Shown: positions 4,189 to 16,942 of the stretch, one piece after another
How the letters are laid out: each line of letters begins with the position of its first letter
Position numbering within the stretch: the stretch's first letter is position 1
Assembly (NCBI RefSeq): GCF_002159975.1
Contig: NZ_NFJR01000001.1
Coordinates: 310,001 to 374,000 of the forward strand
DNA length: 64,000 nucleotides
DNA from: Barnesiella sp. An22
GTDB lineage: Bacteria; Bacteroidota; Bacteroidia; Bacteroidales; Barnesiellaceae
Direction: 5' to 3'
Translations under genes and position numbers: made by a program
The notes under the pieces: generated by a model
What the model was told of the DNA's origin: nothing
What the model saw: only the letters and a program-made list of their open reading frames with translations
Databases searched by the model: none

Positions 4189-5511
4189 ATGGAAACATTC
4201 CTCATAAAAACCGTACAACTCCTGTTGAGCCTCTCGATACTGGTCATCGTACACGAGTTCGGACACTTCATCTTTGCCCGCCTGTTCAAGGTTCGAGTCG
4301 AGAAGTTCTACCTCTTTTTCGACCCCTGGTTCTCGCTCTTCAAGTTCAAGCCCAAAAACAGCCACACCGAGTATGGCGTGGGCTGGCTGCCGCTGGGCGG
4401 ATATGTGAAGATTGCCGGCATGATAGACGAGTCGATGGACCGCGAGCAGATGAAACAGCCCCCCAAACCGTGGGAGTTCCGCTCGAAACCGGCCTGGCAA
4501 CGGCTGCTCATCATGGTGGCCGGCGTGGTCTTCAACTTCATCCTGGCCATCTTCATCTACTCGATGATTGCCTATACGTGGGGCACCACCTACATCCCGT
4601 TCAAAAATGCCTACGCCGGCATGGAGTATTGCCAGTCGGCCAAAGAGATAGGATTCCGCGACGGCGACATACCCTTGACGGCCGACGGGGCAGAGCTCGG
4701 ATTCATGTCGAGCGAGACCCTGCAGCAAATCGTAGAGGCCAAGCAGGTACAGGTGCTGCGCAACAACGACACGGTGACGATTGCCATACCCAAGGACTTC
4801 ATGCTGCGCCTTATCGACAAGGAGGAGCAGTTTGCCATGTACCGCATTCCGCCGGTCGTTTATGAAGCCTCGGCCAATACGGGTGCCCAACGGGCCGGAT
4901 TGCTGAAGGGCGACCGCATCCTCTCCATCGACAGCGTAGCCACCCCGTCGCTCGACGAGCTGCACCAGGTACTCTCGACTCGCCGCGACACCACCGTGAC
5001 CGTAGCCTACCTGCGCAACGGTGCGTTGCAGACCACGGCCGTAGCCACCGACTCGGTAGGCAACCTGGGCATTCTCATCTCGCCCCTGGTCGAAAGCTAC
5101 GAAGTGGTAACCGAGCACTACGGCTTCTGGGAGTCATTCCCCAAAGGTATCGAACTGGGTGTGAGCAAACTGACAAGCTACGTCAACAGCATGAAATATG
5201 TCTTCACCAAAGAGGGAGCGCAAAGCCTGGGGGGCTTCGGAGCCATTGGCAGCATCTTCCCCGAGCGGTGGGACTGGGAGTCGTTCTGGAGCATGACGGC
5301 CTTCCTGTCGGTCATCCTGGCCTTCATGAACATCCTGCCCATACCGGCCCTCGACGGCGGCCATGTGCTCTTCCTGCTCTACGAGGTGATAACCCGCCGC
5401 AAGCCCAACGAAAAATTCATGGAGTATGCCCAAATGTGCGGCATGATTTTCCTGCTGGCCCTGCTCATCTATGCCAACGGAAACGACATCGTCCGCTTCT
5501 TTTTCAAATAA
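4189..5511 (+). CDS. rseP: RIP metalloprotease RseP (site-2 protease)
   Basis: Integral inner-membrane zinc protease that cleaves transmembrane segments, classically of anti-sigma factors. The ATG at 4189 gives METFLIKTVQ and places the zinc motif HEFGH at residues 22-26 inside the first transmembrane helix, as in the family; the longer reading needs a TTG start. There are membrane segments near residues 105-130, 360-390 and 410-435, tandem PDZ-like domains between about 130 and 310, and the third zinc ligand in ALDGGH near the C-terminus. 440 aa. Because the Dma-like anti-sigma factor at 13382 has a single inner-membrane helix, RseP is a plausible but unproven processing enzyme for it. Confidence 0.95.
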   Translation: METFLIKTVQLLLSLSILVIVHEFGHFIFARLFKVRVEKFYLFFDPWFSLFKFKPKNSHTEYGVGWLPLGGYVKIAGMIDESMDREQMKQPPKPWEFRSKPAWQRLLIMVAGVVFNFILAIFIYSMIAYTWGTTYIPFKNAYAGMEYCQSAKEIGFRDGDIPLTADGAELGFMSSETLQQIVEAKQVQVLRNNDTVTIAIPKDFMLRLIDKEEQFAMYRIPPVVYEASANTGAQRAGLLKGDRILSIDSVATPSLDELHQVLSTRRDTTVTVAYLRNGALQTTAVATDSVGNLGILISPLVESYEVVTEHYGFWESFPKGIELGVSKLTSYVNSMKYVFTKEGAQSLGGFGAIGSIFPERWDWESFWSMTAFLSVILAFMNILPIPALDGGHVLFLLYEVITRRKPNEKFMEYAQMCGMIFLLALLIYANGNDIVRFFFK

Positions 5512-12838: not shown

Positions 12839-13369
12839 ATGGACGAGAAAAAGTTGATAGAAGCTTGCAAAAATAACGACTCTCGAGCGCAAAGGCAACT
12901 CTATGAAACCTTTGCGCGTAAAATGATGTCGGTATGTTTGCGCTATGCCGGCAATCGAGAAACCGCCGAAGACTTTCTGCAAGAGGGCTTTATCCGTGTC
13001 TTCTCGTCGATACAGAGTTACAACTACGAGGGTTCTTTTGAAGGTTGGATGCGACGTATTTTCGTGAACACGGCTTTGGAAGCGCTGCGCCGAAACGACT
13101 TGCTGCGCAACGGAGTAGAGCTGGAGGCACTCGAACCTCAGCAAGAGGCCGACTACTCGGCCGTAGACCGTATATCGGCCGACGAGTTGATGGAGCTTAT
13201 CGCCCAGCTACCGCCGGGATTCCGCACCGTATTCAATATGTTTGCTGTCGAGGGTTACTCCCACCGGGAGATTGCCCAGGCGCTGCACATTACCGAAAGC
13301 ACCTCGCGATCGCAATATACCCGGGCCAAAAGGCTGCTTCAAAAATGGATTCAAGAACTGGAACAATAG
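12839..13369 (+). CDS. ECF-type RNA polymerase sigma factor (Das-like, partner of the downstream Dma protein)
   Basis: A 176-aa group 4 sigma factor. Region 2 (residues about 8-80) contains the core-binding and -10 recognition helices (ETAEDFLQEGFIRVFSSIQSY, SFEGWMRRIFVNTALEALRR). A short linker follows, then region 4 (residues about 118-168) with LPPGFRTVFNMFAVEGYSHREIA and the recognition helix ITESTSRSQYTRAKRLL. ATG at 12839 is chosen over an upstream TTG because MDEKKLIEACKNND is the canonical start. It begins 83 bases after a terminator and is followed at 12 bases by a membrane anti-sigma candidate and then a NigD-like gene. This order matches the Das1-Dma1-NigD1 locus of B. thetaiotaomicron. 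Autoregulation is likely by family precedent but no operator was identified. Confidence 0.92.
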   Translation: MDEKKLIEACKNNDSRAQRQLYETFARKMMSVCLRYAGNRETAEDFLQEGFIRVFSSIQSYNYEGSFEGWMRRIFVNTALEALRRNDLLRNGVELEALEPQQEADYSAVDRISADELMELIAQLPPGFRTVFNMFAVEGYSHREIAQALHITESTSRSQYTRAKRLLQKWIQELEQ

Positions 13370-13381
13370 GTATTAACGACT

Positions 13382-14611
13382 ATGCAGATAGACGACCGAC
13401 AATTTGAAAAGACGATACAATCGAAACTGGCAGGACACGAAGCCGATGTCAGAGGCGATTTGTGGGCGGCTATCGAGTCGAAGTTACCCCAGAACGCTCC
13501 GCAGATTGCGACCCGTAGAGTTCCGCTCTACCGACGTATCATCGCCTACTCGGCAGCCGCTGCGGCTGTGGGTATAGTCGTCGCTGTCGTATGGTGGCAG
13601 ACGCCCGAGAAGCCTTTGGTTACCCCGATAGCCAACCAGCTATCGACTGAGGGTGTGGAGATGGTACAACCGGCAACAAACGACAGCGAGCAACCCCTCA
13701 TTGCAGCAGCTACTCAACCGCAAACCACACACCCGGCACCCCGGGTTGCCCACAGCAAAAGGGTAACAGCTCCCGAAACTCAATCGTTGTTGGGTCACGA
13801 AGCTCTTGCCCAACCGGCTAATCCGACGACTCCAACCCAGGTTGTCGCTCAACCCGAAGCAGCTACCTCCTCTACCGCTGCACAAAAATCGAACAACACC
13901 GACGCAGACTATCGCCGCAAGCTGGACCAGTTTGAAAACGACGGTCGGGAACTGAAAGAGAGCGGACTCACGGCCGACGAGTCGACGAAGAGAAAAGGCT
14001 CCGGCATTCAGATAGGCGTGATGGCAGCTAATGCCACTACCGACAAAAGCCAGAATACGGCAACGGCAATCCGCACCAAGACACCCATGCTGTTGTCGCG
14101 ACGCAATCCCGTCTACCACTTCGAGCACAGAATGCCCATATCGGCGGGTATCACCGTATCGAAGACCTTACCTAAAAACTGGGAACTGGAATCGGGATTG
14201 GTCTACACCTACCTCTATTCGAAATACAGTTCGACCAACGGCAACGGCAGCCAAGAGCTGCACTATCTGGGTATCCCCCTCAACGCAGTCTACCGCTTTG
14301 CCCGCATCAAGCGCCTGTCGTTCTACGCGGCAGCCGGCGGACAGGTAGATTTCTACCTGGCGGGGAGACAGAAAGACGAGGGATACGACGAGGGCATATC
14401 GGGTTCGGGATACAAGGAGCTGAAACACGAAAACGTGCAATTCTCAGTACAAGCCAATCTGGGCGCAGCCCTCACGCTGTACAAGCAGACCGAGCTCTAT
14501 CTGGAACCCTACATGGCCTACTACTTCGAAAACAAATCGGAAATACATAATATCTGGAAGGACAAGCCTTTCAACTTCGGCTTGACCTTTGGCATAAGAA
14601 CCGGATTTTAA
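13382..14611 (+). CDS. Predicted dual-membrane-spanning anti-sigma factor (Dma-like)
   Basis: 409 aa with an unusual trans-envelope layout. Residues 1 to about 48 are polar and helical (DLWAAIESKL) with basic residues (RRVPLYRR) just before a single hydrophobic helix at about 52-72, giving an N-in orientation. Residues about 73-205 are a low-complexity linker rich in Pro, Gln, Thr, Ala and Ser with no predicted fold. Residues about 206-409 are amphipathic strands (ISAGITVSKTL, ELESGLVYTYLYSK, FYAAAGGQVDFYL, QFSVQANLGAALTLY, FNFGLTFGIRTGF) ending in Phe, the usual signature for outer-membrane insertion. There are no Cys, so no zinc anti-sigma motif. The neighbours are an ECF sigma factor and a NigD-like lipoprotein, as for Dma1, reported in B. 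thetaiotaomicron to control vesiculation. Often annotated simply as a porin-family protein. Confidence 0.87.
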   Translation: MQIDDRQFEKTIQSKLAGHEADVRGDLWAAIESKLPQNAPQIATRRVPLYRRIIAYSAAAAAVGIVVAVVWWQTPEKPLVTPIANQLSTEGVEMVQPATNDSEQPLIAAATQPQTTHPAPRVAHSKRVTAPETQSLLGHEALAQPANPTTPTQVVAQPEAATSSTAAQKSNNTDADYRRKLDQFENDGRELKESGLTADESTKRKGSGIQIGVMAANATTDKSQNTATAIRTKTPMLLSRRNPVYHFEHRMPISAGITVSKTLPKNWELESGLVYTYLYSKYSSTNGNGSQELHYLGIPLNAVYRFARIKRLSFYAAAGGQVDFYLAGRQKDEGYDEGISGSGYKELKHENVQFSVQANLGAALTLYKQTELYLEPYMAYYFENKSEIHNIWKDKPFNFGLTFGIRTGF

Positions 14612-14660: not shown

Positions 14661-15389
14661 ATGAAAGCATTGAAATTTGTATCGGCTCTATCGTTGCTTT
14701 GCGGCGTCTTAACCCTCTCAAGCTGTCTGGGCGAAGGTGGCAATACCTTGTCGGTATACACCACCGGCAGCATCTACAAAACCAATACGGGCACCTCGTA
14801 TATGTACCTCGACCGTACCGGACTGTCGGTCACAAGTAGCGAATTGCAAAGCGAAGATTGGGAAGAGGGCGACCGCCTGTTGGCCACAACGACTATCGAC
14901 TTCGACAACCAAGGTACCCAAGTGTCGAACTACATCTATAACGCCACCATCTCGGGTATTCATCAATTCGATTGCAAAGACTATCTGTACAATGGTGCCT
15001 TCGGTGCATTCCAGAGCGATACCCTCCCCTCGCTCTACTCGATAGAGCCCTTTATCAACTATCGCAAAGACGATACTATCCTCACCTTTGCCTATGTGAA
15101 ATACGAGGTTGAAAGCGGTGAAGCCGGTTCGCTGGAACTGATTCAGCCCAAGATGTTCGACTTCGAGACCAAGACCGATACTCTCTATCTCGTCTACAAC
15201 AAAGGAAATATCAAGGAGTCGAAAAGCTCGGACTACATCTCGTTCAAGCTGCCGCAATATCCGGTCAATACCGACATCAACGTGGTTGTGAGATACCAGG
15301 CAGCCAGCTCGAACTTCTCGACCGGTGGCAACGACAAGACCAGCAGATACTTCTCGTTCACCTACAACCGGCCCGAGACCTTGGAATAA
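14661..15389 (+). CDS. NigD-like lipoprotein
   Basis: 242 aa. The signal peptide has the lipobox LSSC at residues 19-22, so the mature protein begins at Cys22 and is lipid-anchored. The body is all-beta (YMYLDRTGLSVTSSELQSED, DRLLATTTIDFDNQG, YISFKLPQYPVNTDINVVV), matching the two-domain NigD family (OB-like N-terminal, beta-sandwich C-terminal), which is restricted to Bacteroidota. It lies 49 bases after the Dma-like gene with no terminator between and a terminator about 50 bases after its stop, so it is the last gene of the sigma operon. In B. thetaiotaomicron a NigD protein is the effector through which Dma1 loss causes hypervesiculation; the same role here is inference. Confidence 0.85.
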   Translation: MKALKFVSALSLLCGVLTLSSCLGEGGNTLSVYTTGSIYKTNTGTSYMYLDRTGLSVTSSELQSEDWEEGDRLLATTTIDFDNQGTQVSNYIYNATISGIHQFDCKDYLYNGAFGAFQSDTLPSLYSIEPFINYRKDDTILTFAYVKYEVESGEAGSLELIQPKMFDFETKTDTLYLVYNKGNIKESKSSDYISFKLPQYPVNTDINVVVRYQAASSNFSTGGNDKTSRYFSFTYNRPETLE

Positions 15390-15805: not shown

Positions 15806-16942
15806 ATGAAGAATCACAGAAAAATCGTATACCTATTGCTCTGCATGGCAATTCTCGGGAATTCCTGCCGTCCGGAACAGCAATCAGAAACTCAGTTTAT
15901 CGATAAGACTCAACAGTTATTGACCCTGAATGACGAAGGTATCATACCCGATACGGCGATAGACCAATTTTTTGATTGGATTCGAGAGAATCCTCAATCC
16001 TTGGATTCTCAATTAACCGATAGGAACCATAACATAGAGTCCATGGAGATAGCCACCTCGCCCGATGGCAATATGCGAACATACAGCATCGAACTATATG
16101 GCTTTGGCGGAATACCTTCGTATGGATTCGAGACTCGCACCTTGCTTCAATATCGGGCCAACGATTCGGTCGTTTGTTTGGAACTGGACAGCATTCAAGG
16201 ATATGTATCCCAGATAATCCGAATAGAGCCTTCGAAATCGCTATATATGCTTGCCGACTGCGAAGAGTTTAACACGCAAGGGTCTCATGTTTACATGAAT
16301 CTGTGGGGCCTGCAGATAACCGACCAAGGAACTATTGCTCCGGCTCCGATATTTAAGAAGGAGACACATCTATTGACACATCTCGATTGGAGATGGGACG
16401 AATATGGTTACAATGACGAAACCGACCAAATCATCTTCTCGGCCGAGTTGTCCGAGCCGTATGAAATAGCTTATGATACCGTTTCGAACGAATTACATCT
16501 TCCTTATATCGTAACACATGGCGAATATTCCATAGCTACAGAAGCACATCGGGTATACCGGTGGAATGGAAAATATTTTGTAGACAAAGGGGTTGCTCCC
16601 CTGTTCGATTTGCATAGTGACGACTTCCATATTATCATCGATATACAGGCCAATGGCAATTACCGATATAGGTGTTGGAATAAGGGACGCAAAATCGATG
16701 ACAAACCCGACTTGCAAATTGAAAACGGCATTAGAAAATGTTGGGACCAAGACGGAGAAGTCTTTGATTACAATGCTTTTTGTGAAAATTTTCAAGCCAA
16801 GCCTGCCGGAAAAATATATCTATTTTATAACCAGGGCTTTCGATATGAATATCACATGGGAGATATTCAAGGTAAAGTCGTCAACAAGTTGTGTATCTAT
16901 AATCCTCAGAACAATCTGATTTACGAGCAATCTTACGATTGA
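15806..16942 (+). CDS. Unknown lipoprotein
   Basis: I do not recognise a family. 378 aa; residues 1-21 form a lipoprotein signal with Cys at 21 (LGNSC). The rest is a soluble, mostly beta protein rich in acidic and aromatic residues, with VYRWNGKYFVDKG (a short phrase common in Bacteroidetes secreted proteins), RTLLQYRANDSVVCLELDSI and a C-terminal NPQNNLIYEQSYD. Base composition is more AT-rich than the flanking housekeeping genes, suggesting recent acquisition. It has its own promoter box and is separated by a terminator from the NigD gene, so it is probably not part of the sigma operon. Periplasmic or surface location is inferred from the lipobox. Confidence 0.75.
   Translation: MKNHRKIVYLLLCMAILGNSCRPEQQSETQFIDKTQQLLTLNDEGIIPDTAIDQFFDWIRENPQSLDSQLTDRNHNIESMEIATSPDGNMRTYSIELYGFGGIPSYGFETRTLLQYRANDSVVCLELDSIQGYVSQIIRIEPSKSLYMLADCEEFNTQGSHVYMNLWGLQITDQGTIAPAPIFKKETHLLTHLDWRWDEYGYNDETDQIIFSAELSEPYEIAYDTVSNELHLPYIVTHGEYSIATEAHRVYRWNGKYFVDKGVAPLFDLHSDDFHIIIDIQANGNYRYRCWNKGRKIDDKPDLQIENGIRKCWDQDGEVFDYNAFCENFQAKPAGKIYLFYNQGFRYEYHMGDIQGKVVNKLCIYNPQNNLIYEQSYD

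Follow-up and report, generated by a model that had tools for sequence, protein, structure and literature searches.

Results

The Dma-like locus and its neighbourhood

The window analysed here, the whole 64,000-nucleotide stretch of DNA from Barnesiella sp. An22, contains adjacent forward-strand genes for an ECF sigma factor and a putative dual-membrane anti-sigma factor of the Dma type. The sigma factor (176 aa; positions 12839–13369) ends 12 bases 5' of its partner and matches the Pfam families Sigma70_r2 (E 1.6e-15) and Sigma70_r4_2 (1.1e-15) and the NCBIfam model TIGR02937 (3.9e-30); no ECF21-specific model is among the matches listed for it. The partner gene (13382–14611) encodes a protein of 409 aa, assigned as Dma-like from its open reading frame and a Pfam match to its barrel. 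A Pfam search with E up to 1 returned no FecR or CSS periplasmic domain in this protein, which does not class it with the FecR/CSS group, and NCBIfam gave nothing useful (best E 0.33). Immediately 3' on the same strand lies a gene for a NigD-like lipoprotein (242 aa; 14661–15389), named from a sub-threshold match to Pfam NigD_N-like (E 0.0013, 19 bits, under the cut-off of 24.6). Farther 3' of the operon, a lipoprotein-like open reading frame of 378 residues (15806–16942) has no family match in Pfam (best E 0.19) or NCBIfam.

The window also encodes an RseP-type site-2 protease on the forward strand (4189–5511; Peptidase_M50 5.4e-54, PDZ_2 7.8e-12), which gave the sole M50 match in a profile search of its own assembly. 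The matches over cut-off in that assembly further comprise four S41 (Prc-like) proteases and one of DegP type.

Counting the genome under study, a Dma-like orthologue was found in eight of the nine genomes of the genus searched, and a scan of genome contigs returned six loci, five of them from the same genus or near it. The same genome carries a second Dma-like protein, a group B paralogue (contig C45, locus L001, 2963–4312), whose gene sits behind its own ECF sigma open reading frame ending at 2976. Beside it on the minus strand is a divergent lipoprotein-like frame (1501–2259), and 3' of it are an ECF sigma-like frame (4487–4996) and a small frame with one transmembrane (TM) helix (4986–5450) that, judged by eye, resembles an ordinary anti-sigma factor.

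Domain organization of the Dma-like protein

The AF2 model of the 409-residue protein is weak overall (7-sequence alignment, mean pLDDT 46.6, pTM 0.41). It places helices at residues 5–20, 25–33, 49–72 and 173–194 and strands from 208 to 408, leaving residues 73–172 bare. The pLDDT is mostly 50–80 in the barrel from about residue 245, 34–42 in the N-terminus and membrane helix, 21–30 in the tether and about 55 in the helix preceding the barrel.

From these predictions and comparison with orthologues, the chain can be divided into six parts, all on the forward strand. The cytosolic N-terminal segment (residues 1–48; 13382–13525), with the first two predicted helices, matches no Pfam family over cut-off and is presumed to bind the sigma factor, a role carried over from the published Dma family. 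It is followed by a predicted inner-membrane helix (residues 49–72; 13526–13597; hydropathy 2.30 over 19 residues), a hypervariable tether predicted to be disordered (residues 73–172; 13598–13897), a predicted juxta-barrel helix (residues 173–194; 13898–13963) with a conserved motif at residues 177–193, a variable spacer (residues 195–207; 13964–14002) and a predicted 8-stranded outer-membrane barrel with a C-terminal Phe (residues 208–409; 14003–14608). Mean identity among the eight genus orthologues is 0.64 for the N-terminus, 0.19 for the variable part of the tether, 0.61 for the motif, 0.25 for the spacer and 0.80 for the barrel.

The barrel matches Pfam OMP_b-brl_2 (PF13568; 1.2e-9 over residues 245–367), and the best match identified by Foldseek is the OmpA transmembrane domain (9fzc; E 4.0e-6, TM 0.68 by target). 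In the genus orthologues surface loops 2–4 are as conserved as the strands (identity 0.85–0.90), with a lower value for loop 1 (0.62), which may point to a conserved ligand or partner at the surface. Weak matches to the barrel profile also occur in open frames of 215–264 aa, which leave no space for an additional membrane helix and tether and may be stand-alone barrels akin to the Dma barrel.

The original prediction, that a tether joins an inner-membrane helix to an outer-membrane barrel, is thus backed by structure prediction and comparison. The layout of sigma-binding end, membrane helix, 'intrinsically disordered tether-like region' and barrel has already been published for the Dma family (PMC13088901), and the protein is therefore a further member of that family and not a novel architecture.

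Composition and divergence of the tether

Residues 73–205 (13598–13996) had been described as a featureless, low-complexity linker lacking cysteine. Both the coordinates and the composition hold: residues 74–175 are rich in Ala (16.7%), Thr (14.7%), Pro (12.7%) and Gln (9.8%) and lack Cys, Phe, Trp and Tyr entirely. The fraction of order-promoting residues (FWYILVMC) is 0.157, and just 63 of 14,594 segments of 102 residues, drawn from 52 open reading frames, fall at or under this value, all 63 within this protein; this background is a rough one, because the frames were chosen greedily from the window and some sit on the wrong strand. The block-mean pLDDT is 30 at residues 71–80 and 21–27 from 81 to 170, which taken alone is weak evidence of disorder since pLDDT is low in the N-terminus and membrane helix too. 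A charge-hydropathy measure disagrees with the others and places residues 74–175 as marginally ordered (+0.025). No Pfam domain was found inside the linker. Among orthologues the variable part is 0.201 identical, versus 0.169 ± 0.014 for shuffled copies.

The featureless description therefore stands for residues 73–172, which lack predicted structure and evolve near chance identity, but not for residues 173–194, which are charged, predicted helical and conserved. Freedom from cysteine is widespread, being found in 108 of the 122 core homologues defined below.

The juxta-barrel helix

The helix at residues 173–194, overlooked in the original prediction, is rich in charged residues and has no proline. 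Its motif, YRRKLDQFENDGRELKE (residues 177–193; 18-residue block), is 61% identical in the eight Barnesiella orthologues, where the variable part reaches 19% and the barrel 80%. Beyond these orthologues the motif is rare. It was matched at p<=0.01 (200 shuffles each) in 6 of the other 145 tethers, a set comprising all but the eight group A orthologues and including nine Barnesiella group B paralogues, where chance alone would give one or two. The match is 26–31 residues before the barrel in five of these and elsewhere in the sixth; the motif is missing from the group B paralogues. Given how few other tethers match, the motif was rejected as a general cleavage site for the family.

The distant L050 tether likewise has a weakly predicted helix, and an LxNLEKGI-type segment precedes the barrel in nine of the ten tethers of one distant family, the tenth having a variant. 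Across tethers little is conserved beyond the genus-level juxta-barrel helix, save a weak juxtamembrane patch, so that no general cleavage motif is visible.

Tether length across homologues

Homologues were collected with barrel-dominated profiles. The full-length profile matched 74 of 295 genomes of the order, and a 48-row barrel profile matched 127 of 392 genomes of the order and, across the phylum, 23 of 392, of which six are from the order. Loci were taken from every open reading frame listed for the full-length profile, from 17 barrel-profile matches outside the order and from 40 further matches within it. Two core-level loci apparently cut by contig ends (G771:C269 and G696:C208), the weak matches of 215–264 aa, some other weak matches and any matches beyond those listed were left out. 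Removal of duplicates (L017, L045–L049) left 159 loci, from which three with no barrel match (L103, L104, L107) and three broken or masked ones were dropped, giving 153 measured tethers. The latter three were L042, with an in-frame stop in the tether, the broken L094, and L026, with a run of unknown residues. In L042 (minus strand, 1492–2757) the stop splits the membrane-helix part from the barrel part. In L094 (13–3114) separate frames encode a sigma-TM fusion and a shortened barrel next to a transposase-like frame, and this locus is probably a decayed Dma3-like gene.

A tether was counted as the residues lying between the membrane helix and the first strand, and homologues with a barrel score of at least 100 bits were designated core. 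The 122 core tethers have a mean of 133.4 residues (SD 18.5, median 131, CV 0.14) and range from 98 to 216, plus one doubtful value of 95. That value, for L034, comes with a bad strand score (-1.3); it is counted among the 122 and excluded from the n=121 model fit below. By length class, two core tethers are under 100 residues, five are 100–109, 107 are 110–159 and eight are at least 160, so that 115 of 122 reach at least 110. Two apparently short tethers of 65–66 residues (L087 and L092) were rejected, because their first strand had escaped the aligner; with an iterative strand profile they measure 129 and 128, and L031, L033, L072, L078 and L095 shifted as well.

The 31 distant homologues span 110–348 residues, some with tandem repeats. 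Ten of them form a single family, which we take to be Flavobacterium-like, with tethers of 214–348 residues and barrels 54–86% identical. Within two tethers (L116 and L122) neighbouring repeats of 32–33 residues are identical at 25 of 25 positions, suggesting recent length change by duplication; weaker repeats are seen in L118, L119 and L124.

The original prediction held the linker to be ample to span the periplasm, and no measured homologue is too short for an assumed gap of 20 nm. The comparison across all 153 also reveals variation in length of more than threefold.

Length evolution and chain mechanics

Pairwise length differences in the core amount to approximately 0.13–0.16 log units at barrel distances of 0.5–2 and 0.22 at 3–4. 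For the first 96 sequences a set-point model had a slight edge over drift (AIC -125.7 vs -123.9); with 121, drift was slightly ahead (-208.8 vs -207.0) and the two are not separable. In drift simulations the minimum stays at or above 98 residues in 8% of runs. Conserved length was accordingly rejected as proof of selection: the order of the models flipped between the two samples, and some drift runs keep the minimum. A minimum reach is the natural reading but not a proven one for the same reasons.

Treated as a worm-like chain (0.38 nm per residue, persistence length 0.4 nm), a tether of 132 residues stretched across 20 nm would bear a tension of about 9 pN, versus 15 pN for 98 residues and 2.6 pN for 348. 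On these assumed parameters the resting tension would differ about sixfold across homologues, and the stiffness of the 132-residue chain at 20 nm would be around 0.7 pN per nm. A system reading tension would, in such a model, need other means to set its threshold across the family.

The suggestion that tether length sets the pull on the sigma-binding end is thus not borne out, given lengths of 98–216 in the core and 110–348 in distant homologues, tandem duplications, drift performing about as well as a set-point, and the low stiffness. Judged from sequence, a leash with a minimum reach fits better than length as a force gauge, because none of the tethers is short, their length varies more than threefold and no clear preferred length emerges. 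This reading agrees with the periplasm-spanning segments of TonB and TolA, for which median lengths of 113 (TonB domain II) and 192 residues are given, with deletions in TolA tolerated until the segment cannot span; TonB domain II segments go down to 40 residues (PMC12204202). The survey separates two easily confused ideas, enough length and tuned length, and yields a testable threshold.

Sigma pairing and natural fusions

A sigma gene lies directly upstream in 141 of the 153 loci, is fused to the Dma-like gene in seven and was not found in five. The sigma match in each of the seven fusions stops no more than 5 residues from the TM helix; a gap of 1–5 residues separates the two in three of them, and the other four show an overlap of 1–4 residues with the start of the helix. 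Their tethers, at 105–128 residues, are inside the core range. As far as the sequences reveal, these fusions have no room for an anti-sigma domain, and retention at the membrane is the only visible inhibition. Release by proteolysis is favoured for this reason, and cutting is the simplest release for a sigma factor held in this way. The fusions suggest that the family works by cutting, in which case the entire signal path would be one disordered strap spanning the periplasm. Release in unfused members could instead occur through conformational change.

A precedent is provided by IutY of Pseudomonas putida, in which sigma and anti-sigma factor form a single chain; Prc first shortens its periplasmic part to about 50 residues, after which RseP cleaves the protein (PMC5411451). 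RseP, which the original prediction had put forward, is a plausible protease for the Dma-like protein, a role indirectly favoured by the sole M50 match in the genome and by the sigma-TM fusions. The open-access literature searched yielded no tether-length comparison, juxta-barrel motif or RseP cleavage for a Dma protein, and the available text of the published Dma accounts shows no cleavage of any Dma protein.

Discussion

A proposed mechanism for sigma release

The predicted architecture and disorder, the lack of short tethers among those measured, the wide variation in length and the pairing with sigma genes, as they appear from sequence and modelling, lead us to a reading in which residues 73–205 form the periplasmic leash in an anti-sigma factor of Dma/Reo type that works by being cut; we put its chances at about even. 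The leash would consist of a disordered chain of about 100 residues and the short juxta-barrel helix, set between the outer-membrane barrel and the sigma-binding inner-membrane helix. Its sequence would be nearly free to drift, the main need being enough length for the barrel to arrive at and fold into the outer membrane with the N-terminus remaining in the inner one. Some change affecting the barrel or the outer membrane may then expose the tether or the juxta-barrel helix to a periplasmic protease for site-1 cleavage. Trimming would leave a short stub, RseP would cut the membrane helix, and the sigma factor encoded at 12839–13369 would be freed.

Several other readings were weighed. The tether might be a mechanosensor, a spring whose length is tuned to the width of the periplasm and whose tension on the inner-membrane helix frees the sigma factor. 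Anchorage at both ends, the estimated 9 pN for the assumed chain, the fairly narrow range among close homologues and the slight lead of the set-point model on the first 96 sequences are in keeping with this. Set against it are the reversal of that lead with 121 sequences, the very long tethers of the ten distant homologues, two with perfect repeats, on barrels that remain alike, and the low stiffness near 20 nm; we consider such tuning improbable. A conformational relay, in which docking of the juxta-barrel helix, on or inside the barrel, is lost and this loss alters the membrane helix through the chain with no cutting, could draw on the position of the conserved helix 13 residues before the first strand, on the weak helix in L050 and on the LxNLEKGI-type segments. 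But some 100 disordered residues of varying length between the two helices would make a poor relay, and in the sigma-TM fusions a relay would have nothing to set free, which makes this route unlikely too.

A third alternative casts the barrel as a BAM client whose failed insertion would lead to degradation of unfolded barrel and tether and so free the sigma factor. It overlaps with cutting of the leash, because its trigger lies upstream of the same cutting step. The Phocaeicola sigma/anti-sigma pair is induced by the antibacterial toxin BcpT, and many BcpT-induced genes also respond to bacteroidetocin A, called a BamA inhibitor (PMC9308784); ecfO-reo are the most upregulated genes under BcpT or Bd-A, and the pair is proposed to sense outer-membrane stress (PMC13114119). 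A terminal Phe, Tyr or Trp, present in 68 of the 122 core proteins, is also in line with a reporter of barrel assembly, but the remaining 54 have no terminal aromatic residue, the conservation of loops 2–4 would not be needed by a mere folding reporter, and glycan sensing has been proposed for Dma2 (PMC13088901). We regard assembly reporting as possible, though doubtful. Also speculative, and held with limited confidence, is the idea that the tether itself is the switch. The disordered chain would be a protease-exposed fuse guarded by the juxta-barrel helix; the barrel would unmask the fuse upon damage to the surface or to assembly, and one cut would free the sigma factor. In the fusions, where no anti-sigma domain is visible, the double-membrane leash would then be the whole inhibitor.

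Comparison with known systems

In Bacteroidales, Dma/Reo systems affect the output of vesicles, resistance to toxins and fitness in the gut. The described systems closest to the window protein are Dma1–Dma3 of Bacteroides thetaiotaomicron, which share its sigma-binding N-terminus, TM helix, disordered tether, C-terminal barrel and adjacent ECF sigma factor; Dma3 bears its sigma factor at the N-terminus, as do the seven fusions, and Dma1/Das1 act through nigD1, a counterpart to the NigD-like gene near the window pair (PMC13088901). The likeness to Dma1, from a different genus, is one of described architecture, and the available text of that account makes no mention of the motif at residues 177–193. 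The EcfO-Reo pairs of Bacteroides fragilis and Phocaeicola vulgatus likewise have an anti-sigma factor that spans from cytoplasm to cell surface, and their regulon includes nigD genes, a resemblance by description (PMC13114119, PMC9308784).

Signalling of the IutY and FecR type also carries an outer-membrane signal to an ECF sigma factor, and the topology of IutY is like that of the seven fusions (PMC5411451). In those systems the outer-membrane part is a separate receptor, whereas in the window protein, which has no FecR match, barrel and anti-sigma factor are one chain. Domain II of TonB and TolA resembles the Dma tether in being anchored in the inner membrane, crossing the periplasm and varying in sequence (PMC12204202); it has no covalent outer-membrane anchor, whereas the Dma chain is predicted to be anchored in both membranes.
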